A stretch of DNA of 44,654 nucleotides from a virus, in the IMG/VR virus record IMGVR_UViG_3300021963_000220, positions 1 through 44,654 of that record, one strand, 5' to 3'. The notes beneath the pieces are model-generated. The model was given only the letters and a program-made list of their open reading frames with translations. It did no database searches and was not told the DNA's origin. The position numbers and the translations under genes were made by a program. Position 1 is the first letter of the stretch; every line of letters begins with the position of its first letter. This document shows positions 6,441 to 44,654 of this stretch, one piece after another.

Positions 6441-8732
6441 ATGTCAGTACAAAAAATTTCATCATTTAAGTCCTTTACTGAGGTTAAAAACCAATCAAAG
6501 GCAGCTCAACTTCATGAAGAAGGTAAAGCCAAAAGAGCAGAAATAGTATCTAAAATTGGTGCAGCTCTTGAAGAAATGGGTGTTACTTCACTACAAGAAT
6601 TAGATGAAGAAAAAAGAAATGCCTTAGTTGCTAAAATCTTTAATGAAGATGAAGCAGAAGAAATTGAAAAAGATATTGTTAAATTAGGTGAACCTAAAAA
6701 AGAAGATCCTAAAAAAGGCGAAGAATTAACAAACGAAGCTATTATCAATGAAGGGACAAGATCTCAAATTGGTAAAATTGACAAGTCAGGTAAAATTGTA
6801 TCAACTTATGTACATTATGATGGTTATCCAGAGAATATGGTGCCATTATTGAAAAATTACAAAGACACTAAATCAGTAGATCAATTATTAAAATTAGGTA
6901 AAGCGGGTATTTCATACTTAGATGCAAAGATTGGTGATAAACCATTGGATTTCAATAATCCAGAAAAAGGCATTACTTTATTCTACGGAAGAGATAGAAA
7001 TGAAAAAGGTGACATGACCACTAAAGCAGACGTTAAAAACGTAGCTAAGTATTTAAAAGGTGTTGCAAACCAATCAGGTGCAGAATATGCTTATTTATAC
7101 GATGAAAGAGACGGTAAATGGTACATGGCTGACACATATGAAGATAAAGAATTAAAACCAGTTGCAGAATCTTTGTTAACTGAAGGTAATGCTTTTGGCG
7201 CTGCAGTTACTAAAGCTAAAGAAGCTGGAGAAAAAGAATTTGAATTTGACGGTAAAACTTACAAAGTTAAAGAAGATAACGCATCTGAATTTGATGTAAT
7301 TGATGATGTATTCGAAGCAAACTATAATGTTTCTAGATCAGCTATCGGTAGAATGGGCGGTTTAGTACCAATCAAAGAAATGAAAGCTTTGATAGATTGT
7401 TCTAAAGCAGTCATCGAAGATCTATACGAAGAAGGCTTTGAATTAGACGAAATTATCGGCTACATCGCTTACAGAATCAATGATAAATTTGAAGGCGTGT
7501 ATGAATCAGCATTAACTGAAGGTTCACACGGAATGGCTACTAAATTGCTTCAAGCTATTGTAGACGGAGATTCTTCTAGTGCAGAAGGTATTAAAATGTC
7601 AAAAGAATTAGCACAACATTATATTGATTGGATTAGAACTTCACCTTACGGTAAAAAGAATGCAAACTTGCCATTAGCAATGTTGGTTAAAGCATCTCAC
7701 AACTGGGGTATTGAAAGAGGTTTGGATTCAAAATTAAAAACTGAATTAAAAGGTTTAAAAGAATCTACTGAATCAATCGAAAGCGATGGCGTAAACGAAG
7801 CTAGATCAATTAATAAAATCCAGACAGAATGGACTAAAGTTACTAATGCAATGAAAGACACTGCAGCTAGTTGGAAAGCAGCTGAAGGTGATGCAAAAAC
7901 TGCATTATTAACAACTTTAAAAGAAATGACAGCAAAAAAGAAAGCTTTAGAAGCTGAATTAGATGCAGTTGTTTCAGATAAAGACAAAGACTTAGAATTA
8001 GCAATGGAATCAATGACTTTAGTTTTACGATCAGTTGACGAAGGCTTTGAAGTTCATTATTCTGATGGCGTTAGAGCTATGAAGAAATTCGGTAATGAAA
8101 AACAAGCAATCGATTTTGCTAAAGATCTAATCAAAAACAAAAAAAGTTTACAATTCGTAGATGTTTTTAATGCAGGATCAGGATTTCACTCAACATCTGA
8201 TACAAATGCCATCGTAGCATTTTGGGGAGATGGTTCTTATACAGACAATGTTTCTAAGAGAGATACTAAATTAGCTGCTAAAAAAATTCAAGAATCTGTA
8301 GAAATTAACGAAGAAGACATCACGTCAGATGATCAATTTAAAGAATATGCGATGACAGTTTTAAAAGATGCATTCAAAGATGAATTCGATGAAGCTAAAG
8401 CAGAAGATGTTATCAAAGGAATTCTTAGTAAAGTTGATGGTGATTACGGCGCAGCTATCGGAATGCTAACAAGTTCTTTAGGAGAATCAGTTACAAATGA
8501 AGCTACTGTTGAAGTAGATGCTACAGACCCTAAAGATAAAAACTTAGCTAAATTATTAAAGAAACACAATGTTACTTTAGAAGTAATTAACAAAAAGGGA
8601 CCATCGGGTTATCCAGAAGTTAAATTAACCGGAGATACCAAAGATCTCAAAGCAGTTTTAGCAGATGATGAATATGGCTGGGACGATGAAGATCTTGCAG
8701 ATTATATTGAAGAATCAAACACTGAAAACTAA
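6441..8732 (+). CDS. Large modular internal protein with multiple prohead-protease-type sites
   Basis: The 763-residue acidic protein appears built of separate modules. T4-type prohead proteases cut at (I/L)xE before A, G or S. Such sites occur at INE|G (after residue 104), LTE|G (248) and LTE|G (360), with weaker VNE|A (453), VDE|G (534) and TNE|A (687). The module after 104 carries STYVHYDGYPENMV, which I recognise as a motif of an uncharacterised family common in phages. Residues 454-525 look like a coiled coil (KKKALEAELDAVVSDKDKDL). Residues 535-605 are a beta-rich unit with FEVHYSDGVRAMKKFG. The N-terminus MSVQKISSFKSFTEVK may be a divergent capsid-targeting peptide. I infer a packaged polyprotein cut during head maturation. 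No enzyme activity is visible. Confidence 0.6.
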   Translation: MSVQKISSFKSFTEVKNQSKAAQLHEEGKAKRAEIVSKIGAALEEMGVTSLQELDEEKRNALVAKIFNEDEAEEIEKDIVKLGEPKKEDPKKGEELTNEAIINEGTRSQIGKIDKSGKIVSTYVHYDGYPENMVPLLKNYKDTKSVDQLLKLGKAGISYLDAKIGDKPLDFNNPEKGITLFYGRDRNEKGDMTTKADVKNVAKYLKGVANQSGAEYAYLYDERDGKWYMADTYEDKELKPVAESLLTEGNAFGAAVTKAKEAGEKEFEFDGKTYKVKEDNASEFDVIDDVFEANYNVSRSAIGRMGGLVPIKEMKALIDCSKAVIEDLYEEGFELDEIIGYIAYRINDKFEGVYESALTEGSHGMATKLLQAIVDGDSSSAEGIKMSKELAQHYIDWIRTSPYGKKNANLPLAMLVKASHNWGIERGLDSKLKTELKGLKESTESIESDGVNEARSINKIQTEWTKVTNAMKDTAASWKAAEGDAKTALLTTLKEMTAKKKALEAELDAVVSDKDKDLELAMESMTLVLRSVDEGFEVHYSDGVRAMKKFGNEKQAIDFAKDLIKNKKSLQFVDVFNAGSGFHSTSDTNAIVAFWGDGSYTDNVSKRDTKLAAKKIQESVEINEEDITSDDQFKEYAMTVLKDAFKDEFDEAKAEDVIKGILSKVDGDYGAAIGMLTSSLGESVTNEATVEVDATDPKDKNLAKLLKKHNVTLEVINKKGPSGYPEVKLTGDTKDLKAVLADDEYGWDDEDLADYIEESNTEN

Positions 8733-8790: not shown

Positions 8791-10071
8791 ATGAAAACAC
8801 TTTTAAACTATACAGAGTTCCTTATTGAAAAATGGAATCAACAATATCCAGACATTATCTTAGAAGGCGGAGCAGCAGGACACATGATGCACCCATTTGA
8901 TGATGAAACTCTTACATTTGGTGAAATCAAACACATTATTGATGGTGCTTTAGAAGGTCGTTTAGATTTCGAAGCGGCTCCTACTGAAAAAACAGACGGA
9001 CAAAATGTCTTTGTTACAGTTAAGAATGGTCAAGCAATGTTCGCTAGAAATAAAGGACAGATGAAACAACCAATAGATCTTAATGGAATCACACAGATGT
9101 TTCAGGATCATCCATCAACTGGCGTTAGAGATACATTTACGTTCGCTGCACAAGATTTGGCCAGTGCGCTGCAATCACTATCCGCAAAGGACCAACAAGA
9201 ATTTAATGATGGAACTTCATTTATGAATATGGAATTAATTTACTCTGGTAATTCAAATGTAATCGCTTATGGTAAAGATGTTATTCAATTTCATGGTATG
9301 GTTCACACCGATGGAGAAGGTAACCAAACAGGCTCAGACTCTAAATTAGCTGGTAAAATAACAAACGCACTAAAATCAGTTAATTCACACGTACAAAAAA
9401 CATTTGAAATCATTCCACCTCAGGAATTACAAATAGGTAAATCAATTGACTTTGAAGAAAAGAAAGGTTATTTCTTAAATAAGGTTAATGTTTTACAAAA
9501 AAGATATAACTTACAAGACACAGATCCAGTTTCTAAATATCACGCGATGTGGTGGAAAGAACTTATAGATAAAGACTTTTCAAAATTAGATGAAATTGAT
9601 AAAGCAGGCTTAGTACAAAGATGGGCATTCAATGACAAGAAAACTTTAAATATTAGAGATCTTGCAAAGAAAATGGATCCAACAGAATATAAAGCATTTC
9701 AAAAATTTGATAAAGAAGACTCAGTTAAAAAATTTAAAGAAAACATTTTACCATTTGAAAACTTATTCTTAGAATTAGGTTCAGTGGTGTTAAAGAATGT
9801 TTCTAATCTTTTAGTTGCTAATCCAGCTCAAGAAATGCAAAGACTACATACACAAATTAAAACAGAGGCCGATAAAATCAAACAAAACGGAGATTTAACT
9901 CAATTAGCTAAAGTAGAAAAAGAATTAGCTAGATTAGATTCTATCGGCGGTATTGATTCTATCGTACCTTCAGAAGGCTTAGTTTTTCAATATAAAGGTA
10001 AATTATTTAAGCTTACTGGAACATTTGCTGCCATTAATCAGCTTATGGGTATTATAAAATACGGAAGATAA
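8791..10071 (+). CDS. Ligase-like nucleotidyltransferase with capsid-targeting-like N-terminus
   Basis: The 426-residue protein has motifs of the covalent nucleotidyltransferase (DNA/RNA ligase) superfamily. Motif I is EKTDGQN with candidate nucleophile Lys67. MFARNKGQ follows about 15 residues later, NMELIYSG resembles motif III, and SEGLVFQYKGKLFKLTG near the end fits motifs IV and V. The N-terminus MKTLLNYTEFLIEKW resembles a capsid-targeting peptide and is followed by a clean prohead-protease site, ILE|G after residue 25. This suggests it is packaged and injected. Residues 28-36 (AAGHMMHPF) resemble a segment I recall from cyanophage proteins of unknown function. Substrate (RNA or DNA) is unknown. 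It is followed by a second ligase-like gene with its own promoter. Confidence 0.6.
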   Translation: MKTLLNYTEFLIEKWNQQYPDIILEGGAAGHMMHPFDDETLTFGEIKHIIDGALEGRLDFEAAPTEKTDGQNVFVTVKNGQAMFARNKGQMKQPIDLNGITQMFQDHPSTGVRDTFTFAAQDLASALQSLSAKDQQEFNDGTSFMNMELIYSGNSNVIAYGKDVIQFHGMVHTDGEGNQTGSDSKLAGKITNALKSVNSHVQKTFEIIPPQELQIGKSIDFEEKKGYFLNKVNVLQKRYNLQDTDPVSKYHAMWWKELIDKDFSKLDEIDKAGLVQRWAFNDKKTLNIRDLAKKMDPTEYKAFQKFDKEDSVKKFKENILPFENLFLELGSVVLKNVSNLLVANPAQEMQRLHTQIKTEADKIKQNGDLTQLAKVEKELARLDSIGGIDSIVPSEGLVFQYKGKLFKLTGTFAAINQLMGIIKYGR

Positions 10072-10142: not shown

Positions 10143-12023
10143 ATGGCATTACAAAAATTAAGAGATTTTTATCAAGGTACGAATCCCAATACATTTAACG
10201 ACATGTTAAAGTCAAGAGTTGTTGTAACTGAAAAGATTGCAGGAGCTTCATTTCATGTTAGAAGAGCAATGGAAGGTTTTGAGTATTTCAAATCTGGAAA
10301 TAACGAAGCTATGAATATCATAGATAGAACGTTAACTTCAGTATATGAAAATGCAATTAAACACTTTCAAAGTTTAACATTAAACGAGAAAAATCAAATG
10401 CCAAGTGATTGGAAGTTTGGATTTGAATATTTACCAGAAGCTAATATGTCTTCTATTGAATATGATTCAACGCCTTTCAATTTTATGATATTAACGCACA
10501 TTCAAGTTTTAGGAACTAATGGCAAAGCTAAAAAGGTTTTAACAGATCCTAAGGTTCTAAAAGAATGGGCACAAAAACTACAAGTACAAGGACCATCAAT
10601 CATTTTTGATGGCATGTTAAATGAGGATCAAAAGAGAAATTTAGTGACATTACTTTCAATGTCAAACGAATCATACGCTAAAAGATTTGGAAATGAAGCG
10701 TTCACCAACCACATTTACAAATTATTTAATCCAGGAGCTTATAAAACCATTTTAAATGAAGATTTAATCAAACCGATTGATGGTTTAATAGTCTCTTTCG
10801 TAGATTCAACACAAATTAAAAGTTTTAAATTAGAAGAGTTTAAACCAGCTAATGAAGCTGAAACTTCCAACAGAGAAGCAAGTCACATGTATCAAATTAC
10901 AATGGTTGATTTGCTAGAATTCTTTTCAACAGTAGACCTAGATAGTATTGAGCTTTTAGAAACAGCTTCAGATAAAAGATATATTGAGTTGATTTCAGCA
11001 ATGTACAATTCGTATGTTAAAGAAAATGCTACTAAATATGTAGGAGTTGATTTTGGAGCAGCTGATTTTTCTAAATCTGCATTATTCAATATCAATACAA
11101 AATACATTGACAACGAAAAGACATTAGAATATTTAGACAATCCAGTTTTAGCTGAACTTTATAAAATCATGCTAAGCTCTTTTTCTAAAAAGAAAATAAA
11201 AGAATCTGCATTGTTAAATTCAAATATCTTAGAACAATTAAATCAGATTATTGATGTAATTGAACAAAAAGTATTTGTAGAAAACGCAGATGAAAATGCA
11301 ATTCACAACTTCAATAATTTCTTAATGCACAATAAGATTTCTGCTAGTAAAACTAACATGAACGAAGCATTAAAAATTAATTATTCAGAACAAGGTAAAG
11401 AAAAAGTAAACATGTTTGTTGGTAGATTCCAACCATTTACTCTTGGACATGCTAAAGTTTTAGAAACAATCCACAAACAAAATGGTTATCCAGTCGTAGT
11501 ATTTTTGGTTAAAGCTGCAAAGGCTCAAAAAGACGATGCCGTTAAAAGACCGTTTGATACAGAAACACAAATTCAAATGTTTATGCAAGTGCAAAAGCAA
11601 TATCCTTTCTTAAAAGAGATTTTTGTAATTCCATCAGCTGGTATCGATTTGATGTTTAATGAAATGAGACCTAAATATGAACCAGTTTTATGGGGAACAG
11701 GCACAGATCGTTTCAAAACTTATGGCTATCAAGTAAACAATGACAAATATAGAGATGAACTTGGTGTTTTACCAGAGTTTGGTTTATATGAGATCAAAAG
11801 AGACGATGAAGATATTTCAGCAACTAAAGTTAGAGAAGCTTTATTAGCTAATGATAAAAAGACTTTTGATAAAATGACACCTAAAGCGTTAGGTCCTTTA
11901 TTTAATGAACTTAAACAAAAGTTAGAAACTTCATTAAAAATTTCAGAAGCTATTGAAACAGAAGCAAGTACGGATGTATTAACTTTTGAACAATTTAAAT
12001 TAAATACTAATATTATTAAATAA
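10143..12023 (+). CDS. RNA ligase fused to an NMN-adenylyltransferase-like domain
   Basis: This 626-residue protein has two enzyme domains. The N-terminal part reads as an RNA ligase: motif I EKIAGASF with nucleophile Lys31, FGFEYLPEAN (motif III-type), PIDGLIVSF (motif IV) and IKSFKLEEF (motif V). From residue 424 a Rossmann-type nucleotidyltransferase begins with FVGRFQPFTLGHAKVL, the GRFQPxxxGH signature of NadM/NadR-like NMN adenylyltransferases. It ends near ISATKVREAL, matching their ISxTxxR motif. The middle third (about 240-410) is helical and unassigned. The end, LTFEQFKLN, recalls the FEQF of the cargo N-termini. A host-type promoter lies upstream. Roles in RNA repair, NAD synthesis or both are possible. 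I know of no such fusion in T4. Confidence 0.72.
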   Translation: MALQKLRDFYQGTNPNTFNDMLKSRVVVTEKIAGASFHVRRAMEGFEYFKSGNNEAMNIIDRTLTSVYENAIKHFQSLTLNEKNQMPSDWKFGFEYLPEANMSSIEYDSTPFNFMILTHIQVLGTNGKAKKVLTDPKVLKEWAQKLQVQGPSIIFDGMLNEDQKRNLVTLLSMSNESYAKRFGNEAFTNHIYKLFNPGAYKTILNEDLIKPIDGLIVSFVDSTQIKSFKLEEFKPANEAETSNREASHMYQITMVDLLEFFSTVDLDSIELLETASDKRYIELISAMYNSYVKENATKYVGVDFGAADFSKSALFNINTKYIDNEKTLEYLDNPVLAELYKIMLSSFSKKKIKESALLNSNILEQLNQIIDVIEQKVFVENADENAIHNFNNFLMHNKISASKTNMNEALKINYSEQGKEKVNMFVGRFQPFTLGHAKVLETIHKQNGYPVVVFLVKAAKAQKDDAVKRPFDTETQIQMFMQVQKQYPFLKEIFVIPSAGIDLMFNEMRPKYEPVLWGTGTDRFKTYGYQVNNDKYRDELGVLPEFGLYEIKRDDEDISATKVREALLANDKKTFDKMTPKALGPLFNELKQKLETSLKISEAIETEASTDVLTFEQFKLNTNIIK

Positions 12024-13205: not shown

Positions 13206-15455
13206 ATGAATTTTCAAAACTTTCTTAACGAGAAATATAGCAAAGATGACATCAATACAGCGTATGGCTTCTTTGGTACTATGGAAGATGCACATAATGA
13301 AAAAATAGCATACGAAATATTTGATGCAGCTGTTAAAGACTTGATGAAAGAATTTGGTCTTAAAGATGTTGAAGCTGTAGCTTTATTAAATAGCAAAGCA
13401 GGTAGACAAGCAGCTGATGCAATTATTGCAGGAGAATGTGAAGATAGTGTTGTTGCAGGAATGTATTGGTACTTTGGCAAAAACAACAAATCAAAAATTG
13501 TTAGTGCTGCTAAAAGTGCAATTAGTGAATCTAATGAATTAGATGAAGCTTCTAAATTTGGAGCTCCAGCTGGTTTAACTAAAGCTCAAACTAAAAAGGT
13601 TGCAGAAACTTTAGCTAAAGCAATGTCAAAGGCTGATAATGCTAAAGTGACAGTTAATCTTAGAACATTAGAAGAAGATTCATTTGATTTAGATTATGAT
13701 GGTGAAGAATATGACGGTGGTTCATATAATATTTACGATGACGGTTCTGTCGTTAATCATGCAGTAACACCTAATGAAATTTATGGAACTTCTGATTCTT
13801 CAGTTGAAGATTTTATTAAAGGTTTAAAAAAGCCTATTAAAGAATCATTCTTAGATGCTTATGATGAAAATTCAGAAGAATTAGATGAATCATATTCAAA
13901 TGATTTTGCATCTTGGTTTACAGGTACTTCATTAAATGATGTTAAACATCCAAAATATGGAAATCACAAAGTAACGCCAGATCAAATTAAAAATGCGCCG
14001 GCTGATTACAAAAATAAACTTTTTAAAGCTATAGAAAAGGCAATTAAATCAGGTGATATTACAAATGACATGATTAAAGCCAATGAATCTTTAGAGATTA
14101 GCGAATCTAAAATTACTTTAAAAAGAAGATATACAGAAAGTTATCCAGCTAAAACAACTGGAAAATATGCTGCTGTTAGAAATAAAATCATCGAAGCTTT
14201 AAAAGACGGTGAATTAACTAAAGAAGAATTTGACACTTTAGTTTCTGGTTTAACAGAAGATTCTAAAAGATGGTTAAGAAGAAATTCAACCTTCTTTAAT
14301 ATACAAGAAGATAAAGTTGGTTTAACAAAATCTGGTCAAAAAATAGCAGCTGCTCTTTTTCAAGCGGAAGATGTTAATAGCAACTTAAAAACAAACGAAA
14401 ATAACAATACAAATATGAAAACTAAATTCATTTATGAATCATTTTCTGAATTCGTTAATTCAATTGATGAGTCTTTTGAATTAGTTTCAGAATCATTTAA
14501 ATCATCTATGTTAGCTGGTTTATTTACAAGACAAGGTACATTCGATGCTAGTTTAGCAAAAGCTTTTTATGGAGCTACTAAATTAAAATTAGATCAAATC
14601 GAAGATGAAGATTTAATTAGTACAACACCAGCTTTAGCATATAAAAACAAATTAGAAAGTTCTATCGTTTTTTATATCTCTGATGTAGAAAAACCAAATA
14701 CTTATGCACCAGCAGACACTTACTATGCAAGTAAAACTATTCCAGGTGAAGGCTATTTATTAGCCGTAGCTTCAGGAGATAATAAATTCTATGACAATGT
14801 TTGGACTGGTGGAAGATGGGACAGAAATGCTAAAAATAGAACATTAAAACAAGTTGATAACAATCCAAGCGATTCAATCGGTATTAATAAAAAATACAGC
14901 GGATGGGAAGCAACAGGACTCTACAATGTTAAAAGAATTTCAGAAGTAGCTGATAGAGCAATCGTAATCAATACAACTTTATTAAGACAAAAATATTCAG
15001 CAGAAGCTCAAAGAGCAGATAGAGCTGCAGCTAAAAAAGGTGCAATTGCATTTAAATCAGATAAAGATTTTAAAGCTGAAAACATGGCAAGATATAATCA
15101 AATCATTGCTCAGAAAGCCACTCAAATGCCAATGGACAGTTTAGTTTCAAAAGCAATCGAAAGAATGTCTGAACAAATCAAAGACGGTTTAGCTAAACAA
15201 ACTAAAGGGCGTTATGGCGAAATTATCGTAGGTACAAATGCAAAAGGCGCTGAAGCTAAATTAGCAGATGTTGCTAATCACATGCAACGTATCTTAGATG
15301 ATTATTCTGGATATGTTCGTGTTGTTGCACAGCAAGAAGATTCAGTTGCTAAATATGGAGAAGCAGAGTCTTGGTATAAAAGAGAAGTTGAACAAAAAGC
15401 AAAAGAACTTAAAGATAGACTTGATAAAATAGAATCATTCTCTTATATCTGGTAA
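13206..15455 (+). CDS. Large internal polyprotein-like protein with repeated protease sites
   Basis: The 749-residue protein begins MNFQNFLNEKYS, resembling a capsid-targeting peptide with LNE at residues 7-9. The first 423 residues hold many consensus prohead-protease sites: ISE|S (after 108), LDE|A (114), IKE|S (213), LDE|S (228), ISE|S (300), IYE|S (411) and IDE|S (422). None is evident in residues 423-749. Met404 opens a second capsid-targeting-like peptide (MKTKFIYESFSEFVNS), so the gene looks like two cargo genes fused. The last 320 residues contain SSIVFYISDV, YYASKTIPGEGYLL and a long C-terminal helix. No catalytic motif was recognised. I infer packaging and cleavage into several peptides plus a roughly 327-residue C-terminal protein. 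Confidence 0.6.
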   Translation: MNFQNFLNEKYSKDDINTAYGFFGTMEDAHNEKIAYEIFDAAVKDLMKEFGLKDVEAVALLNSKAGRQAADAIIAGECEDSVVAGMYWYFGKNNKSKIVSAAKSAISESNELDEASKFGAPAGLTKAQTKKVAETLAKAMSKADNAKVTVNLRTLEEDSFDLDYDGEEYDGGSYNIYDDGSVVNHAVTPNEIYGTSDSSVEDFIKGLKKPIKESFLDAYDENSEELDESYSNDFASWFTGTSLNDVKHPKYGNHKVTPDQIKNAPADYKNKLFKAIEKAIKSGDITNDMIKANESLEISESKITLKRRYTESYPAKTTGKYAAVRNKIIEALKDGELTKEEFDTLVSGLTEDSKRWLRRNSTFFNIQEDKVGLTKSGQKIAAALFQAEDVNSNLKTNENNNTNMKTKFIYESFSEFVNSIDESFELVSESFKSSMLAGLFTRQGTFDASLAKAFYGATKLKLDQIEDEDLISTTPALAYKNKLESSIVFYISDVEKPNTYAPADTYYASKTIPGEGYLLAVASGDNKFYDNVWTGGRWDRNAKNRTLKQVDNNPSDSIGINKKYSGWEATGLYNVKRISEVADRAIVINTTLLRQKYSAEAQRADRAAAKKGAIAFKSDKDFKAENMARYNQIIAQKATQMPMDSLVSKAIERMSEQIKDGLAKQTKGRYGEIIVGTNAKGAEAKLADVANHMQRILDDYSGYVRVVAQQEDSVAKYGEAESWYKREVEQKAKELKDRLDKIESFSYIW

Positions 15456-15485: not shown

Positions 15486-16004
15486 ATGAAACACATTCAA
15501 TTATTCGAACAATTTATTAACGAAGCTAGAGCTGAAGTTAAATTAGGTAGAGTGACACCTAAAAACATAGATGAAAAGGCACAACAAGTGTTAGAAGTTT
15601 TACAAGACGCGGTTGGTAAAACTATCAACGGAGAAGAACTTAAAAAAATGGTTGGTAGAAACTGGGGAGGTCCAGGTGCAAGTAAAGGTCTTAAAAATGC
15701 TAAAATTGAAATTATTGCAGTTCACGTAGGACATAACAATAGCTATATTTCTATGCAATTTATATATAAGACTGATTCAGATTTATTCGATAACCACGCC
15801 GAAGGTAATCAAAAATTAAAAGATCTTGAAGGTTGGGCCAAAGTAGCAGACGGTATGCGTTCTATGAAAGCAATTGACGGTAGTAATAAAGAATATAAAA
15901 GCGATGCATCGCACCAAGTCAAAGAACTTGTATTTAATAGTTTAAGTCCTAAAAACTTAGAAAATGCATTATCTATTTTAAAATTAGGTGATATTATCCT
16001 ATAA
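15486..16004 (+). CDS. Putative packaged internal protein with capsid-targeting peptide
   Basis: The 172-residue protein begins MKHIQLFEQFINEARAEV. This closely matches the style of T4 internal-protein targeting peptides and carries a consensus cut site, INE|A, after residue 13. The same N-terminus, with small changes, starts the gene at 29205 (MKHIKLFEQFIDES). The mature part is mixed alpha/beta (KIEIIAVHVGHNNSYISMQFIY) with no recognised active site. I infer targeting to the head core, cleavage by the protease encoded at 43258, and injection with the DNA. The gene starts 30 bases after the large polyprotein-like gene. Confidence 0.65.
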   Translation: MKHIQLFEQFINEARAEVKLGRVTPKNIDEKAQQVLEVLQDAVGKTINGEELKKMVGRNWGGPGASKGLKNAKIEIIAVHVGHNNSYISMQFIYKTDSDLFDNHAEGNQKLKDLEGWAKVADGMRSMKAIDGSNKEYKSDASHQVKELVFNSLSPKNLENALSILKLGDIIL

Positions 16005-24907: not shown

Positions 24908-26326
24908 ATGCTATTAGACATTGAACAAAGAGAGAAGGAAATTATAGTTTCATATTTCAACAAAGAAGGCACAGTAGATTTTAAACGTTATCCAATAACA
25001 CAATTTAAAAATTGGTATGTTTGTGATCCTAAAGAAGCTGGTGCTAGTCGAGATTTTAAAAACTGGGATGGACGTTCAGTGAAACTTTCACAAGCTAGAC
25101 AATTTAATAAATTTTCATTAGTTTATTTTATGGATGGCTTACCAGAAAAAGACAAAGAAGTTATTTACGAATACAATTCACCTAGAACATATTTCGTCGA
25201 TATTGAAACTGAAATTGTCGATGGCTTTCCAAAGGCCGAAGAAGCTAAATCAAGAATCTTAGCTTTTTCTATAGTTACACCAGACAAAAAGGTAATCGTA
25301 TTAGGTTTAGAAGACTTAGAGTCTGATAAAATTAAAAAGATTGAAGATGACACTAATGAATACATGAAAAAATTTGGTGATGAGTGGACCTTTCAATATA
25401 TTAAATTTAAAACAGAGTATGACATGGTTTATACTTTCGTTTATAAATTTATGCCTAAGTTTCCTATGATGACTGGCTGGAACTTCATTAACTATGACTG
25501 GCAGTATATTGTAAATCGATGTAAACATCTACAGATCGATATAGTTGGTTCGTCCAGGACAGGATCATTAGATCCAGAAGACAGTAGACCATTACACATG
25601 GGAATTCTAGATTACATGCAGCTATATGACAAATACGATAGATCTGTTAAAGTAAAAGAGTCAAACTCTTTGGATTACGTTTCTAGTCAAGTATTAGGTA
25701 CTAACAAGATTAAATTCACAGGATCATTACAAGATTTATATAGAGATAACTTTACTAAGTACATCTACTATAACGTAATTGACTCCATCTTAGTTTATTA
25801 CATTGATAAAAAATTAAAATCAATGGATGTACTTATTACTCTTGCATCTATTACAAAAATGCCATTATATAAAGCAGCTTCACCGGTAGCAGTAACTGAA
25901 GCCTTGATTGCAAGAAAAATTGCGTCTGAAGGTAAACGTATTGGAACTGAAGCCAGAGAAGATAATAAAAAAGAAGGTCAATTTGCTGGAGCATTTGTTA
26001 AAGAGCCTATCGTTGGTTTTTATGAAGGAGTAAGTGCATTTGACTACGCTTCACTATATCCATCTATTATGAGGCAGTTTAATGTTTCTCCAGATGCTTT
26101 TATCGAAAAGGTGCCATCTTCTAAAATAGAAGAAAGACGTAAAGATAAAAATGTTATTGTTTGTGAAAACGGAGTTGTTTATAAAAACGAAGATTCTATT
26201 CTTAAAAAAATATTATCAGATCTTTATTCACAGCGAAAAGAGTATAAGGGAATGTCCTATGAATATTTTCACAAAGCAGAAGAAATAAAAAAGAAAATAA
26301 AAGCACTTGAAAAAGCAGGTCAATAA
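24908..26326 (+). CDS. gp43A: DNA polymerase, N-terminal part (exonuclease plus motif A)
   Basis: This 472-residue fragment of a family B polymerase covers the N-terminal domain, 3'-5' exonuclease and first part of the palm. Exonuclease motifs are FVDIETE (Exo I), GWNFINYDWQYI (Exo II) and YNVIDSILVYY (Exo III). Motif A is SAFDYASLYPSIMRQFN, matching T4 TSLYPSIIRQVN. The frame ends in the fingers helix region (LYSQRKEYKGMSYEYFH) with a short helical extension, before motif B. The remainder is encoded separately at 30520-31716. Both halves carry all expected motifs, so the pair is probably an active split enzyme. It begins one base after gp56. Confidence 0.92.
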   Translation: MLLDIEQREKEIIVSYFNKEGTVDFKRYPITQFKNWYVCDPKEAGASRDFKNWDGRSVKLSQARQFNKFSLVYFMDGLPEKDKEVIYEYNSPRTYFVDIETEIVDGFPKAEEAKSRILAFSIVTPDKKVIVLGLEDLESDKIKKIEDDTNEYMKKFGDEWTFQYIKFKTEYDMVYTFVYKFMPKFPMMTGWNFINYDWQYIVNRCKHLQIDIVGSSRTGSLDPEDSRPLHMGILDYMQLYDKYDRSVKVKESNSLDYVSSQVLGTNKIKFTGSLQDLYRDNFTKYIYYNVIDSILVYYIDKKLKSMDVLITLASITKMPLYKAASPVAVTEALIARKIASEGKRIGTEAREDNKKEGQFAGAFVKEPIVGFYEGVSAFDYASLYPSIMRQFNVSPDAFIEKVPSSKIEERRKDKNVIVCENGVVYKNEDSILKKILSDLYSQRKEYKGMSYEYFHKAEEIKKKIKALEKAGQ

Positions 26327-29204: not shown

Positions 29205-29633
29205 ATGAAACACATTAAACTATTTGAACAATTTATTGATGAATCCAACGACATGTCTCTTCAATCCGCAGCTGGAAATGGAAGATCAATTGGAAGATAT
29301 AATGGACCTACTGGTGCTTCTGCAGAATGGAAAGATAACCAAACTGTTATTTCAAATAAATCAGAGTATTCTACTGAAATTCTAACAAATGCTGCATCGG
29401 CATTAAGAGATCTTGGTATTCAAGTAAAAGAAAAATCAATACAAGATGGTATATTAACAACTGAATTCGGAGGCTCAACGTGGACGTATCAATTTAAAAG
29501 TGGTAAATGGACTGCTACCGTTACAGATTCTAACGGTACTGCAGAAGCCCCAAAAGACATTTATGAATTTATCAGATTTATGGTCGCGCGAAAATATATA
29601 AAATTTAAAGATAAATTAGTAGGACGTAAATAA
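29205..29633 (+). CDS. Putative packaged internal protein between the polymerase halves
   Basis: The ATG at 29205 is chosen. The frame stays open to a TTG at 29181, but that lies inside the promoter box. The 142-residue protein begins MKHIKLFEQFIDES, nearly the same targeting-type N-terminus as the gene at 15486, with a consensus cut IDE|S after residue 13. The rest is mixed alpha/beta (GILTTEFGGSTWTYQFKSGKW). It has its own promoter and terminator, so it forms an independent unit within the nrd-clamp segment. I infer a head-packaged, injected protein. Its mature function is unknown. Confidence 0.65.
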   Translation: MKHIKLFEQFIDESNDMSLQSAAGNGRSIGRYNGPTGASAEWKDNQTVISNKSEYSTEILTNAASALRDLGIQVKEKSIQDGILTTEFGGSTWTYQFKSGKWTATVTDSNGTAEAPKDIYEFIRFMVARKYIKFKDKLVGRK

Positions 29634-29770: not shown

Positions 29771-30520
29771 ATGAAAGTAGTTATTAACAAAGTAGATCAG
29801 AACAACTTTGTAGCATTCATTAATCGTTTAAGAGTTATTGATTCTTTTGTCTATTTCAAAATTAAAGACGAACAAATCATCTCTTCAGCTTATTTGCCAC
29901 AACGTGACGCTGTAAAACACCACACGCTTCCAATTTCAGAAGTATTTCAAATTGATGCTAGTCAATTAACAACAGACAAAGACCTTAAAGTGGCTTTCTT
30001 TGATGCTGGTAAAATTATCGAAGCATTCAAACAATTTGAATACGATTCTATTCAAGCAGAAATTGAATTCGTAGAAAACGATGAAGACTGTGTAGCTTCT
30101 ACATTTAAAATCTTTAATGACGAGTTAGAAATCGTTTTAGCTTGTTCAGAACCATCTTTAGGTTACAAAGACTTAACAGAGTCTCAATTACAAAATATCT
30201 TCATGACTGAAGGTGCTGAAGTTAACTTTGATTTATCATTCACTGATACATCTAAGATTAAATCTCTTTTCAACTTAGATAAAGATGAGACTTTTGCAAT
30301 TTCAACTTCTAAAGAAGGTGTTCGTATTAAAGGTAAATCTTACAACAAATTAATCAATTCAACTAGCGTTTCTAAGGCTAATGTGACTGTTTACAAAAAG
30401 TATTTGAACTTGTTTGACAAAGAAGATTATTCTACTTATGTCTTTAACAATAGAGTAGTTTTACGCTCTAAAGACTCAAACACTCTTTTAACAATCGCAA
30501 CTTGCCAAAGCACTGATTAA
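29771..30520 (+). CDS. gp45: Sliding clamp gp45
   Basis: The 249-residue protein (T4 gp45: 228) has the repeated beta pattern of a trimeric clamp. ETFAISTSKEGVRIKGKSYNK parallels T4 DTIAITVKEGKIVINGFNK, and an acidic, strand-rich N-terminal half precedes it. It tethers the polymerase and, in T4-like phages, also activates late transcription through gp33 and gp55. Its TAA shares a base with the ATG of the polymerase C-terminal half, so clamp and polymerase half are translationally coupled. Clamp-loader genes 44 and 62 are not in the window. Identity rests on weak similarity plus strong context. Confidence 0.72.
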   Translation: MKVVINKVDQNNFVAFINRLRVIDSFVYFKIKDEQIISSAYLPQRDAVKHHTLPISEVFQIDASQLTTDKDLKVAFFDAGKIIEAFKQFEYDSIQAEIEFVENDEDCVASTFKIFNDELEIVLACSEPSLGYKDLTESQLQNIFMTEGAEVNFDLSFTDTSKIKSLFNLDKDETFAISTSKEGVRIKGKSYNKLINSTSVSKANVTVYKKYLNLFDKEDYSTYVFNNRVVLRSKDSNTLLTIATCQSTD

Positions 30521-31716
30521 TGACTATTGAACAACTACTTAATAAACCAGAAGACCAACTAACTTTGGTTGAGCTTAAATCCTTAGCAGACTTTTATTCA
30601 AACGAGTCTGCTAAGTTTACAGCTTATGAACAAGCAGTTAAGTTAACACTTAACTCGATCTACGGAGCCTTTGGTAATAAGTGGTTTCACTTCTTTAATA
30701 TTGACATTGCTGAATCTATTACTTTACAAGGTCAAAATGCAATCTTATATTCCGAAAAGATACTTAATAAGTACTTTCAAGAATTCTTTGTCAAAGATAC
30801 TAAAATTCATGAAGAATTAAATATCAAAGTTAAAAGAGCTTGCGTTAAACCGGCTGTAATTTATATCGATACCGATTCTAATTACGTCCAATTTCAAGAG
30901 ATGTACGAATCTATCGAGTGGTTAGGTGAAAAACTAGACATTGTAACGTTTATTCTTAAACTTTACAATTTACGTATCAAAGATTATATCGTTAAGTCGC
31001 TAGACAAATACGCTGAAAACAGAAACACTGATTCATTTTTAGAATTTGAATTAGAATCTATTGCATACTCAGGTATTTGGATGGCTAAAAAGAAATACTT
31101 GCAAAATTTAGCGTGGGACGATAAACTTGGCGTAAACGAAAGACATGCAATGTTAAAGAAGATCAAAACCATCGGTTATGATACTATTCAATCTTCAACA
31201 CCAATGTTTGCTCGTAAGAAACTATCAGAAGCTTTACAGATTCTTTTTGAAAAGAAGCCAACCCCAGAAACTTTAACAACTATTGTTTCGTTTCTTAAAA
31301 AGGCAAAGAAAGAATTTAAGTTAGCGCCGATAGATGAAATCTCTTTTAACAAGAGAACAAACAATTTAGAGAAGTATATTGTAGATGATCACGTTGAGTT
31401 TCAATATGGACTAAAATGTCCACCTAACGTTAAAGCTGCTGGATTTTATAATTACTTAATGAATAACAATCCTAAGTATAAAAACAAATACAGAATGATT
31501 GGTAATGGTGAGAAGCTAAGATTATTCCATTGTGAACACAAGACATGTGAGATCTTTGCATATTTGCCAGGTGATCATCCTTATGAATTTGCACCAGCCG
31601 TAGATTATGAAACTCAATTTGAAAAATCAGTAATTGATCCATTGAATAGAGTTTTAGGCTGTATTGGTCTTCAGACATTAAACAGAAACTTAATTTATTC
31701 AACTTCATTATTTTAA
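30520..31716 (+). CDS. gp43B: DNA polymerase, C-terminal part (motifs B and C, thumb)
   Basis: This 398-residue half completes the family B polymerase. After a 38-residue leader with a helical start comes motif B, VKLTLNSIYGAFGNKWFHF (T4: KILINSLYGALGNIWFRYY), then motif C, IYIDTDSNYVQF with the catalytic DTDS. The KxKKY element follows (WMAKKKYLQNL), then IGYDTIQSSTP (T4: GMETQQSSTP) and the thumb. The end, FEKSVIDPLNRVLGCIG...STSLF, parallels the T4 end, with its clamp-binding SLDFLF tail. It must pair with the fragment at 24908-26326 for activity. No homing endonuclease or inverted intein signs flank it. Confidence 0.93.
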   Translation: MTIEQLLNKPEDQLTLVELKSLADFYSNESAKFTAYEQAVKLTLNSIYGAFGNKWFHFFNIDIAESITLQGQNAILYSEKILNKYFQEFFVKDTKIHEELNIKVKRACVKPAVIYIDTDSNYVQFQEMYESIEWLGEKLDIVTFILKLYNLRIKDYIVKSLDKYAENRNTDSFLEFELESIAYSGIWMAKKKYLQNLAWDDKLGVNERHAMLKKIKTIGYDTIQSSTPMFARKKLSEALQILFEKKPTPETLTTIVSFLKKAKKEFKLAPIDEISFNKRTNNLEKYIVDDHVEFQYGLKCPPNVKAAGFYNYLMNNNPKYKNKYRMIGNGEKLRLFHCEHKTCEIFAYLPGDHPYEFAPAVDYETQFEKSVIDPLNRVLGCIGLQTLNRNLIYSTSLF

Positions 31717-41171: not shown

Positions 41172-42794
41172 ATGGCAGGATTCGTAGACAGAAACGGACC
41201 GTTTAGTACAGGTAAAAGACCTTTTAGGTTGAGCGATACTCTTAAGAAGTTATCGTCGTTCGGTATGTATTATGACGACTTAGTATTAAGACAATCACAA
41301 GCGATCGGTCCAATGGAAGATCAATTTGGTTACGGCCAAATGAACTTAATGGGCGTAGATTCAGATGACATTTATGGTGCATTTGCTGCACTATCTATGG
41401 CAGATACTAACATGAGAAAGAACCTTCCGTTCTTTGACATGAATTATAAATCTAAAAGAGATGAATTAAGACAATTTTCTCTTTATGATGAAATCGAAGA
41501 CATTTTAGATATTCTTTGTGATGAATCTATTGTATTTGATGAGAAAAATTTCGTAGCAACACCAACCTTAATTGGTATGGAAGTTTCTGAAGAAGTTACA
41601 TCATACATGCATAAATCATTTAGAAATATCTACCAATATTTTGGATTTGCAGGAGATCAATCTGCATGGTTTTACTTTAGAAAATGGTTAATTGATGGTT
41701 ATTTGTCATTTGAGATTGTTTATAATCCAGAAATGACAGAAATTATTGGTTTCAAAGAAATTGATCCAACAACATTAGTTCCAGGTTACAATAAAGAAGA
41801 TGGTAAAAAGGTTTGGGTTCAGTTTAAAGATGATCCAATTAAAGAGCGTAAATTATATGATGCGCAAATTATTTACATCTCATACTCTTCTATTACTACA
41901 GCTTCACGTATCTCTTACGTAGAACGATTAATTAGAGCATTTAACTTATTAAGAGTTATGGAACATACCAGAGTTATTTGGGCTGTTACAAATGCTTCAT
42001 ATAGAATGAAATTTATTATCCCAGTTGGTGGTAAATCTAAAACAAGAGCAAAACAATCATTAGCTCAATTGATGAATAACTATAAAGAAGTAGTTGATTT
42101 TGATTGGGATTCAGGCGTTCTTAATACTAATGGTAAACCGATGCTTCAATTTAATAAAGAATATTGGTTACCTTCAAAAGACGGTGAACAACCAGAAATT
42201 GAAACTTTAGGTGGTGAAGGTCCTGAAATTAATGATGTTGAGTCTTTAAAATACTTCTCAGATAAATTAAAGCACGTTTCTAAGATCCCATATAGTAGAT
42301 TTATGTACGAAGATGGCGGTGGAGAAAACAACATGGCAGCTGACGGTATGATCAGAGATGAGATTAAGTTTGCTAAATTCGTTAACCGTCTAAGATCTTC
42401 ATTCCAAGAAATTTTAGTTAAGCCTTTATGGTTGCAAATGTGTATTAAATTCCCTGAATTCAAAGAGGATCCAATGTTTAGAACACAAATCGCATTAAGA
42501 TATAACGAAGAAAACATGTTTGCTGAAATGAAAAACATGGAAATTATGGAAAAACGTCTAGACTTTATTGGCAATATGCGTAATAACTTGATGACAACGA
42601 ATCCATTAACAATGGAAGAAGAACATTATTTCGATTTAGATTTCTTAGTAGATAAATACTTAAAGCTAAATAATGACGATAAAACAGCCAATGAAGCTGC
42701 TAAAGCAAGAACAGAAGCCAGAAAAGCTGCAGAACCAGAAGATCCAAACGCAATGGCTATGATGGGCGGAGTGCCAGGTGCTGGCGGATTCTAA
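41172..42794 (+). CDS. gp20: Portal vertex protein gp20
   Basis: The 540-residue protein (T4 gp20: 524) forms the dodecameric ring through which DNA enters and leaves. Family marks include FSLYDEIEDILDILCDESIVFD near residue 100, GYLSFEIVYNPEMTEIIGFKEI near 180, IIYISYSSI, VESLKYFSDKLKHVSKIPYSRF and the strongly conserved ADGMIRDEIKFAKFVNRLRS near 393. The C-terminus is flexible and glycine/methionine-rich (MAMMGGVPGAGGF). It precedes the core protein and protease genes as in T4 (20-67-68-21-22). Confidence 0.95.
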   Translation: MAGFVDRNGPFSTGKRPFRLSDTLKKLSSFGMYYDDLVLRQSQAIGPMEDQFGYGQMNLMGVDSDDIYGAFAALSMADTNMRKNLPFFDMNYKSKRDELRQFSLYDEIEDILDILCDESIVFDEKNFVATPTLIGMEVSEEVTSYMHKSFRNIYQYFGFAGDQSAWFYFRKWLIDGYLSFEIVYNPEMTEIIGFKEIDPTTLVPGYNKEDGKKVWVQFKDDPIKERKLYDAQIIYISYSSITTASRISYVERLIRAFNLLRVMEHTRVIWAVTNASYRMKFIIPVGGKSKTRAKQSLAQLMNNYKEVVDFDWDSGVLNTNGKPMLQFNKEYWLPSKDGEQPEIETLGGEGPEINDVESLKYFSDKLKHVSKIPYSRFMYEDGGGENNMAADGMIRDEIKFAKFVNRLRSSFQEILVKPLWLQMCIKFPEFKEDPMFRTQIALRYNEENMFAEMKNMEIMEKRLDFIGNMRNNLMTTNPLTMEEEHYFDLDFLVDKYLKLNNDDKTANEAAKARTEARKAAEPEDPNAMAMMGGVPGAGGF

Positions 42795-42818
42795 TAAAAT
42801 AAAATGAATACATATAAT

Positions 42819-43196
42819 ATGAAAAAATTAATTAAAACATTCGAACAATTTATATTTGAAGCTGAGGCCGTTAAGGCAGAAGATTCAGATGTTTATATCG
42901 ATGATGTATCGGCTGATGGTTCAGACACTGTAATTAAAGCTGTTGAAATTTTAGGAGCTATTAAGGCATCTGCAACAGAAAAAGAATTTAAAGACTATTT
43001 CTTTCAGCAATATGGCCAAACTACTTTAGCACCAGAAGATATGGCTAAACTTTGTAAATATTACAATGAATACAAAGAAGAAGAAAACAAAGAAAAGGCT
43101 GACTCTGAAAAAGAAGGTGAAGATGAAACTTCTACTGAAGAAGATCCATTAGCAGGTTTAGACACAGATTTACCAACAGGAGAAGACGGAAAATAA
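42819..43196 (+). CDS. Acidic prohead core protein (gp67/gp68-like position)
   Basis: The ATG at 42819 is preferred to the in-frame one at 42804 because it gives MKKLIKTFEQFIFEAEA, a capsid-targeting-type N-terminus with a consensus cut, IFE|A, after residue 14. The 125-residue protein ends in a very acidic tail (EEENKEKADSEKEGEDE). T4 places the small core proteins gp67 and gp68 at exactly this spot, between portal and protease. gp67 likewise has an acidic tail. It probably helps shape the scaffold core and is degraded or cut during maturation. Confidence 0.68.
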   Translation: MKKLIKTFEQFIFEAEAVKAEDSDVYIDDVSADGSDTVIKAVEILGAIKASATEKEFKDYFFQQYGQTTLAPEDMAKLCKYYNEYKEEENKEKADSEKEGEDETSTEEDPLAGLDTDLPTGEDGK

Positions 43197-43257: not shown

Positions 43258-44654
43258 ATGAATACAAATTCAAAACTTTTGATTCTTGAAAGAAGTGGTT
43301 CTACATTAGCATTCGCTCAAGATAATTCAGGCGCTTATGTTCTTGAAGGCGTGTTCGGTGAAATCGATAAGTTAAACAGAAACAATCGTATCTATACCGA
43401 AGACGAATATTTACCGCAAGTAGAAAGCCTTCAGGCTAAAATCAAATCATCTAAACTATTAGGTGAATTAGATCACCCACAAAACTTTGACATTTCTTTA
43501 AAAAATGTTTCTCACATTATTGAAGAATTAAGATATGACAAAGACAAGAAACAAATCCTTGGAAAAATTAGATTATTAGACACTGATGCTGGTAAACAAG
43601 CTAAAGCATTAGTTGACGCTGGTGTACCTTTACACATTTCTTCTAGAGCGGCTGGTACAGTAGAATCTAATGGAAAAGTTAAAATCAAACAATTATTTAC
43701 TTATGATTTAGTTGCAGATCCTGGATTTGCTAATGCTGAATTAAAAAGAGTTAATGAAGCTTTTGGTTTTGAAGATAATGAAGATCTTTTAATTTACGAA
43801 ATCAACCCAACTGATAATAAACAAACACAAATAAAAGAAGAACAAAACATGGAAAACGCAAGATTCGTTAGTACTGATGACTTCAATAGTTATTCAAAAT
43901 ACTTAGCTGAAGAAATCAAAGCTTTAAAAGAATCTCTTACAGCATTAACTAGCTCTGAGTCTACTAACGAAGAGATTAAAAATCTAAAAGAGTATTCTTC
44001 TTATATAGCTGAAAAATTAAACCAAGCAATTGCTTATTCTGAGCACGTTGCAGAAAAAGCTGATCAAGGAATTCAGTTCGCTGATTCATTAGCAGAAAAA
44101 TTAGACCAATCAATTCAATATTCTGAGCACATCGCAGAAGGTGTTGAAGCTATCAAAGGTTACACTAACTATTTAGCTGAGTCTTATAACGAAGGAGTTA
44201 TGACACACGAAAATGTAGTTAAATATGTAAACTATTTAAAAGAAAACTTAGAGAAAGTTACTGAATACGCAGAATACGTTGCAGAAACTGTAAACTCTAA
44301 CTTATTAATGGAAGATGATACTGATGCAGGTAAAGAATTAACTGAAGAGCCAAATGATAAAACTCCAGAGGTTATCGATGCAGAAGGTGAAAAATATCCA
44401 AAAGCAGAAGATGCAGCAGAAGATATCGAAGACGAATTAGAAAAAGATATCGAAGCTTCAAAAGCTGACGGTGAAGATACAGGTAAAGAAGTTACTGAAG
44501 AAGTAGAAACTGATGAAGAAGTTGCTGAAACTGAAGACAAAATGGATGCTTATAAGAAAGAAGTTACTGAGAAATTAGCTTCATTAGTTGAAAGCGCTAA
44601 AGCAAAATCAGTAGCAGAACCACATTTCTTTAAATTCATCGCTGAAGCTAAGAA
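43258..44654 (+). CDS. gp21: Prohead protease gp21 fused to a gp22-like scaffold (runs off the window)
   Basis: The frame is open from the ATG at 43258 to the window edge (465 codons). Residues ~30-165 are the T4 gp21-type serine protease (family S80/U9): GVFGEIDKLNRNNRIY, LLGELDHP with His73, DISLKNVSHIIEEL and VPLHISSRAAGTV with catalytic Ser128 or Ser129. A possible self-cleavage site, VNE|A (after 167), ends this part. An internal in-frame ATG (43849, Met198) behind an A-rich stretch opens the scaffold. About seven 14-residue coiled-coil repeats (residues ~250-347; e.g. LAEKLDQSIQYSEH) come first, then an acidic region, then FFKFIAEA with a cut site IAE|A. In T4 these are two genes. The protease presumably matures the cargo proteins. 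Confidence 0.85.
   Translation, partial: MNTNSKLLILERSGSTLAFAQDNSGAYVLEGVFGEIDKLNRNNRIYTEDEYLPQVESLQAKIKSSKLLGELDHPQNFDISLKNVSHIIEELRYDKDKKQILGKIRLLDTDAGKQAKALVDAGVPLHISSRAAGTVESNGKVKIKQLFTYDLVADPGFANAELKRVNEAFGFEDNEDLLIYEINPTDNKQTQIKEEQNMENARFVSTDDFNSYSKYLAEEIKALKESLTALTSSESTNEEIKNLKEYSSYIAEKLNQAIAYSEHVAEKADQGIQFADSLAEKLDQSIQYSEHIAEGVEAIKGYTNYLAESYNEGVMTHENVVKYVNYLKENLEKVTEYAEYVAETVNSNLLMEDDTDAGKELTEEPNDKTPEVIDAEGEKYPKAEDAAEDIEDELEKDIEASKADGEDTGKEVTEEVETDEEVAETEDKMDAYKKEVTEKLASLVESAKAKSVAEPHFFKFIAEAK

Follow-up and report, generated by a model that had tools for sequence, protein, structure and literature searches.

In phage T4, gp21 cuts after L/I-x-E and removes the leaders of 10-19 amino acids by which the internal proteins enter the head (PMC9026906), and the internal proteins Ip1, Ip2 and Ip3 are injected, each inhibiting a different type IV restriction enzyme (PMC12373910). 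In phages SPN3US and phiKZ, a single head protein can be cut several times after E, with nearly all cuts removing an N-terminal propeptide (PMC10052503), and the 250 kDa protein DarB of phage P1 is capsid-internal, carried in by an N-terminal signal, and acts on the host (PMC9024508). We analysed 44,654 nt of viral DNA (IMG/VR record IMGVR_UViG_3300021963_000220, positions 1-44,654; the window) that encodes two polyprotein-like proteins, PP1 and PP2 (polyproteins 1 and 2; all coordinates in Table 1). Like the system of T4 IPI, IPII, IPIII and Alt, this locus combines a short leader-like N-terminus ending in L/I-x-E, an S77/gp21-type protease, small variable candidate cargo and T4-type head genes; in T4 each cargo has its own gene and its own leader, whereas here up to ~12 modules share a chain with paired cut sites between them. 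Unlike the propeptide cuts of SPN3US/phiKZ, the site pairs here flank recurrent, exchanged modules. PP1 and PP2 resemble the P1 Dar proteins in that each would be a large capsid-internal protein brought in by an N-terminal signal, although exchangeable modules separated by protease sites are not described for DarB (PMC9024508). Prohead proteases and internal proteins targeted to the capsid are thus known already, and it is the arrangement of the parts that would be new. Among related topics, the literature search returned only the work on T4, SPN3US/phiKZ and P1, and a phage chain of exchangeable cargo modules between paired protease sites was undescribed in what was searched, which is weak evidence as it was mostly without subscription journals.

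Phage context and the two polyprotein-like genes

The protease at 43258, already named as such in an earlier sequence-only reading, falls in Peptidase_S77, the family of T4 gp21; its open reading frame has a site-containing C-terminal tail and is cut off by the window end. A gp21-type protease (PF03420) is therefore encoded together with PP2 in a T4-like phage (portal, PF07230), and the window also encodes a tail sheath stabiliser and a gp2-like DNA end protector. A Gp23 capsid protein is present in 8 of 10 related records, and near the start of their major capsid protein the relatives share the conserved motifs (I/L)NE↓A and I(I/E/S)E↓(A/S) (↓, cut position). The nearest portal protein is that of an uncultured 462-kb phage (56%), followed at 30-37% by those of other uncultured megaphages, Sphingomonas phage PAU and Tenacibaculum phage PTm1. 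No Shine-Dalgarno-like motif was found at any of the 42 gene starts in the window, where the upstream sequence is A-rich instead. A-rich starts without a Shine-Dalgarno motif are a feature of phages of Bacteroidota, and would point to the host. Elsewhere in the window, 24908-26326 and 30520-31716 look in sequence like two halves of a B-family DNA polymerase, with ~4 kb of other genes between them.

Table 1. Coordinates in the window of PP1, PP2, their parts and the associated head genes.
Feature	Coordinates	Strand	Remarks
PP1 (polyprotein 1)	6441..8732	+	763 aa; PP2-like design, common module pool
PP1 module D4, residues 105-243, phrog_1987	6753..7169	+	border = start of stand-alone cyanophage protein
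PP1 module D14, residues 535-618, FEVHYSDG...	8043..8294	+	also in PP2-type proteins of other contigs
PP2 (polyprotein 2)	13206..15455	+	749-aa open frame; sites; relatives with gained/lost modules
PP2 N-terminal leader MNFQNFLNE, residues 1-9	13206..13232	+	resembles capsid-targeting sequence
PP2 module 1, residues 10-108	13233..13529	+	phrog_8020 match at 17-80; other modules instead in L009
Connector SNELDE, residues 109-114, between ISE108↓S and LDE114↓A	13530..13547	+	pLDDT < 50
PP2 module 2 (family D12), residues 115-213	13548..13844	+	confident fold
Connector SFLDAYDENSEELDE, residues 214-228, between IKE213↓S and LDE228↓S	13845..13889	+	pLDDT < 50
PP2 module 3, residues 229-300, ending ISE300↓S	13890..14105	+	missing as unit in L002, L004, L008; present in L006
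PP2 module 4, residues 301-403, winged-helix-like	14106..14414	+	site IIE330↓A inside fold
PP2 internal leader MKTKFIYE↓SFSEFVNSIDE↓, residues 404-422	14415..14471	+	probably fused gene start
PP2 C-terminal module D2, residues 430-749	14493..15452	+	separate gene in L054, L056, L057, L063; confident fold; site-depleted
Small protein with leader MKHIQLFEQFINE↓A	15486..16004	+	
Small protein with leader MKHIKLFEQFIDE↓S	29205..29633	+	
T4-type portal protein	41172..42794	+	PF07230 E 8e-68
Small protein with leader KLIKTFEQFIFE↓A	42804..43196	+	between portal and protease
Prohead core protease (S77), predicted processing enzyme	43258..44654	+	PF03420 E 3.6e-12; phrog_207 E 7e-43

Neither PP1 nor PP2 has a match above cut-off in Pfam or NCBIfam, and whole PP2 has none among annotated phages, as is also the case for the PP1 and PP2 of other contigs; relatives among annotated phages were found only for PP1 module D4. 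D4 begins immediately after INE104↓, and its first residue is matched in the alignment by residue 2 of a 139-aa protein that stands alone in cyanophage S-SSM4 (31% identity).

Sites in excess, in pairs and at module borders

From its sites alone, PP2 had been read as a polyprotein selected for cutting into peptides and for release of a C-terminal protein. PP2 carries eight (I/L)xE↓(A/S) sites, after residues 108, 114, 213, 228, 300, 330, 411 and 422; all seven sites listed in that reading are present, and IIE330↓A had been overlooked. The shuffled-sequence test that it proposed gave a mean of 1.4 sites, in agreement with its estimate of one or two by chance, and at least eight were reached in 10 of 200,000 composition shuffles (P ~5e-5), so the excess is taken as real. 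For residues 1-429 the shuffle mean is 0.88, and seven sites were reached in 6 of 200,000 shuffles. The last 320 residues hold no (I/L)xE↓(A/S), as the same reading had it, and the corresponding modules of relatives are depleted too (5 [ILV]xE[AGS] against 16.8 expected in the last 305 residues of 22 proteins ending in D2), from which we take the C-terminal part to be truly site-depleted. Among the 48 open reading frames compared in the window, the excess is strongest in PP2 and second in 6441-8732, PP1, with 7 [IL]xE[AGS] against a shuffle expectation of 2.5 (P 0.01), or 12 if V is allowed at P3. As read from sequence, the proposed processing system is wider than one protein, with PP1 as a second member and modules exchanged between the two proteins among relatives.

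Across 70 non-redundant proteins, which are non-independent samples as relatives even with near-duplicates removed, [ILV]xE[AGS] (V at P3 having been added post hoc, after the data were seen) occurs 532 times against 173 in shuffles, a 3.1-fold excess. The control motifs [ILV]xE[KTNDR], [ILV]xE[ILVFYM] and [ILV]x[NQ][AGS] occur at 0.8-1.0 times their shuffled counts, and the ratio is 0.8-1.7 after changing the P1 E to D/K/N/Q or P1' to charged, polar or hydrophobic residues. The motif lies within 5 aa of a homology breakpoint 2.1 times as often as random positions, compared with 0.5-0.7 for versions with D, K or N/Q at P1; [ILV]xE[KTNDR] is 1.8-fold near breakpoints, without numerical excess. 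E/S-rich linkers, and breakpoints in the linkers of any modular protein, are a confound that the control motifs limit and do not remove.

Consecutive sites are spaced in a characteristic manner, with 129 intervals of 4-8 aa (~30 expected), one of 20-29 aa (~49 expected) and 143 of 61-100 aa (87 expected). This corresponds to a double connector, E↓S(2-6 residues)E↓(A/G), between modules of ~60-100 aa, at which paired cuts would excise 4-8 aa. The pairs have a direction: the upstream cut is E↓S in 97/114, the downstream cut E↓A or E↓G in 103/114, and the commonest connectors are SVVNE, SVNE and SVVTE. Sites matching the consensus thus stand at the module borders, the consensus being that of T4 gp21, which may not be that of this phage's protease. 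What had been read as cutting into peptides therefore keeps its polyprotein-like layout and motif-specific excess, with pieces that are recurrent modules of ~60-100 aa, several of them predicted to fold.

PP2 was modelled with AlphaFold2 from an alignment of 16 sequences (mean pLDDT 64.5), yielding confident domains at ~117-209, 320-386 and 430-749. The seven sites first listed all fall within stretches of pLDDT < 50 (105-116, 210-248, 283-319 and 387-429), and site 330 lies in a confident helix (320-331) and was set aside as structural. For PP1, 11/12 sites are in stretches of pLDDT < 50 of a poor model (mean pLDDT 52). Low pLDDT can also reflect a shallow alignment, so disorder at the sites counts as supporting evidence only. 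Foldseek searches against PDB and BFVD gave no matches at E <= 0.001; VIA-align matches for the PP1 coiled coil (446-519), and those of PP2 module 4 to MarR/PadR winged helices (Z ~7-8), were middling and are not taken as function.

Modules, leaders and separate genes among relatives

The first IMG/VR scan gave 11 loci for PP2 and 60 for PP1. Among close relatives of PP2 (85-88% identity), entire blocks are gained or lost: module 3 is missing from L002, L004 and L008, part of the connector is gone as well in L002 and L004 but kept in L008, and L006 has one additional module. The joints between gained or lost blocks fall at xE↓S or xE↓A. The PP2 of L009 (52%) has other N-terminal modules, the first of which is D14 (FEVHYSDG...), also found in the window's PP1. 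Module 4 stands directly after N-terminal leaders in L023, L043 and L061, and the position of D12 ranges from residue 4 to residue 737 in proteins of different construction (directly after the N-terminal leader in L010), at 56-94% identity across contexts.

Chains were cut at the sites and the segments clustered into families by reciprocal 70% coverage, a rule adopted because single-linkage clustering fused unrelated modules into one blob. This yielded 47 families with at least two members (63 proteins), many of them with several different neighbours. One family always starts PP1 and D2 usually ends PP2. Exchange affects the modules in between: on its left and right sides, D5 has 9 and 11 different neighbours, and D7 has 7 and 10. 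Both protein types, PP1 and PP2, include members of D5, D7, D8, D12, D14 and D18; the type was assigned by a simple rule on the first residues that some proteins fit neither way. In a separate search of D7 contexts, E immediately precedes the module in 28/30, and IEE or IKE ends it in 30/30.

The start of PP2 resembles leaders of relatives that continue into different modules (MNFDDFLNE↓S, MNFNQFLNE↓A and MNFNEFLNE↓G); cleavage of PP2 at E9 is less certain, since P1' is K here and not A/S/G. Among 346 open reading frames of these loci, [ILV]xE[AGS] peaks at residues 10-29, with 13.6 and 11.8 per 1000 positions against ~2-8 elsewhere, and many unrelated proteins start MKHIKLFEQFINE↓(A/S/G), some with an adenylyltransferase-like body as judged by eye. 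The small protein at 42804..43196 presumably holds the position of T4 gp67/gp68, a parallel we draw from gene order only.

Where D2 is its own gene it starts MKHKFLFESFEEFTESLNE↓S, and one such gene (L054:9467-10459) aligns at 55% identity to the window's PP2 from Met404, MKTKFIYESFSEFVNSIDE↓S. By this alignment, the internal-protein-like leader of D2 survives inside PP2. The context of the Met404 ATG is at the median level of true gene starts and ranks 3 of 278 internal ATGs; together with the separate D2 gene that aligns from Met404, this suggests that two genes were probably fused to give PP2, and translation of D2 may still begin at the internal start as well. Predicted products of the chains thus occur as separate genes in relatives, for D2 (L054) and for the D4 relative (cyanophage). 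The C-terminal protein of the earlier reading accordingly has a counterpart as a separate gene in other phages, and from PP2 it would be released by cleavage.

Leader-like ends were also seen on enzyme-like proteins. The 426-aa protein at 8791-10071 starts MKTLLNYTEFLIE↓K...IILE↓GGAAGHMMHPF and has an EKTDGQN stretch that by eye is like motif I of nucleic-acid ligases; its relatives lie in many of the same loci and in Microcystis phage Mel-JY01. It may be a ligase-like enzyme that is carried inside the head. Between the two polyprotein genes, the 626-aa protein at 10143-12023 has a nicotinamide-nucleotide adenylyltransferase-like domain at ~420-605 and ends ISE↓A...LTFEQFKLN, leader-like at the C-terminus. 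In L052 (11753-12358) and L067 (7317-7913), a leader MKHVKLFEQFIxE↓A precedes a short PGRFQPFHNGH protein with an adenylyltransferase-like signature by eye, possibly a head-packaged NAD-related enzyme. L028:8370-8549 and residues 455-547 of L061:13365-16184 carry tandem near-identical 30-aa units, GNAFGDAVRKAKEDGKKEFEFDGKTYKVEE, each ending in a cut-like site. In Sphingomonas phage PAU (L089), several proteins, including the annotated scaffolding protein, begin MKTLxxL(Y/F)E↓(A/S), which may represent another type of leader on head proteins; PAU has an annotated internal capsid protein, but a multi-module chain was not recognised in the 50 kb examined.

Alternative readings and proposed processing

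PP2 could instead act in the prohead core as a scaffold, as T4 gp22 and gp67 do, helping to build the core and then being destroyed, with pieces that have no later role. T4 gp22 and gp67 are indeed cut into several fragments (PMC9026906), and the protease open reading frame at 43258 itself has a site-containing tail. A scaffold should however be fragmented throughout, and in this sequence-level test the sites lie between and not within the predicted domains, stand at module borders and are depleted in the 320-aa C-terminal module. The modules moreover look folded and mutually unrelated, the D4 relative is a free protein in cyanophages, and the swapping of unrelated domains between close relatives is not expected of a scaffold, a role that we consider improbable for PP2. 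Slightly less probable again is a long propeptide, in which the 320-aa C-terminal protein alone would be functional and residues 1-429 would be cut redundantly, as in phiKZ and SPN3US. Both phages do have long propeptides with multiple cuts (PMC10052503; PMC9026906) and D2 is the constant part of PP2, but the N-terminal modules are unrelated to one another, exchangeable and individually conserved (D12 at the identities given above), some occur in PP1-type proteins too, and PP1-type proteins have a different constant module.

The least probable of these alternatives, in our estimate, is that PP2 stays whole as a modular protein, its connectors being flexible joints or recombination seams whose likeness to sites stems from E/S-rich composition or shared DNA. 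Module exchange at the joints is directly seen, and the connectors are short and E/S-rich; yet the enrichment is found only for E at P1 followed by A/G/S, the N-terminal leaders end in the same motif, and the folded C-terminal module is avoided by the sites. Within one gene, connectors also vary in length and in the codons used, with some recurring, so a shared DNA seam is not required to account for them but may still play a part. The C-terminal depletion speaks against the scaffold, the enrichment specific to the motif against the uncleaved protein, and the modules common to PP1 and PP2 against the propeptide.

We regard it as quite probable that PP2 and PP1 are precursors of capsid-internal proteins, carried by leaders and cut into modules by the S77 prohead protease. 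The features behind this proposal can be read in the sequences: the sites, their excess and pairing, their position at module borders, the exchange of modules, the leader-like starts and the protease gene. From them we infer that the chains are cleaved and packaged, and that the products are ejected and may act on the host. PP1 and PP2 would each be made as one chain, which a short N-terminal leader like the capsid-targeting sequence (CTS) of T4 would carry into the prohead core. During head maturation, cuts made after (I/L/V)xE by the protease at 43258 would strip off the leaders and short connectors and set free folded modules of ~60-100 aa (roughly 7-10 kDa) and, from PP2, the 320-aa C-terminal protein as well. 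The freed modules would remain with the DNA and presumably enter the host by ejection, like the internal proteins of T4, and phages of the group would swap modules at the connectors, so that the cargo set differs between close relatives. Host-acting roles, possibly against host defences, are plausible for the variable modules by analogy, given that T4 Ip1, Ip2 and Ip3 are injected and inhibit restriction enzymes. With somewhat less confidence, we favour the fuller picture that one leader brings ~10 different small host-acting proteins into the head, where the prohead protease would dice the chain, the double-cut connectors serving as sockets for cargo swapping.

Retroviruses and positive-strand RNA viruses make polyproteins in which one chain yields several products through a virus-coded protease that recognises a short motif. 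If the proposal is true, PP1 and PP2 would be a phage counterpart of these, by analogy and with no homology claimed, the enzyme here being the prohead protease of a dsDNA phage. The connector motif would then be a signature by which to find small, unannotated and probably ejected phage proteins together with their exact mature ends, and the modules are candidates for anti-defence or host-takeover proteins, given the distinct type IV restriction enzymes that T4 Ip1, Ip2 and Ip3 inhibit. Cutting the cargo to pieces of this size beforehand would also hint at how much cargo passes the tail. For these phages, the chains would amount to an arsenal that is reshuffled rapidly and serves at the very start of infection, in its first minutes.
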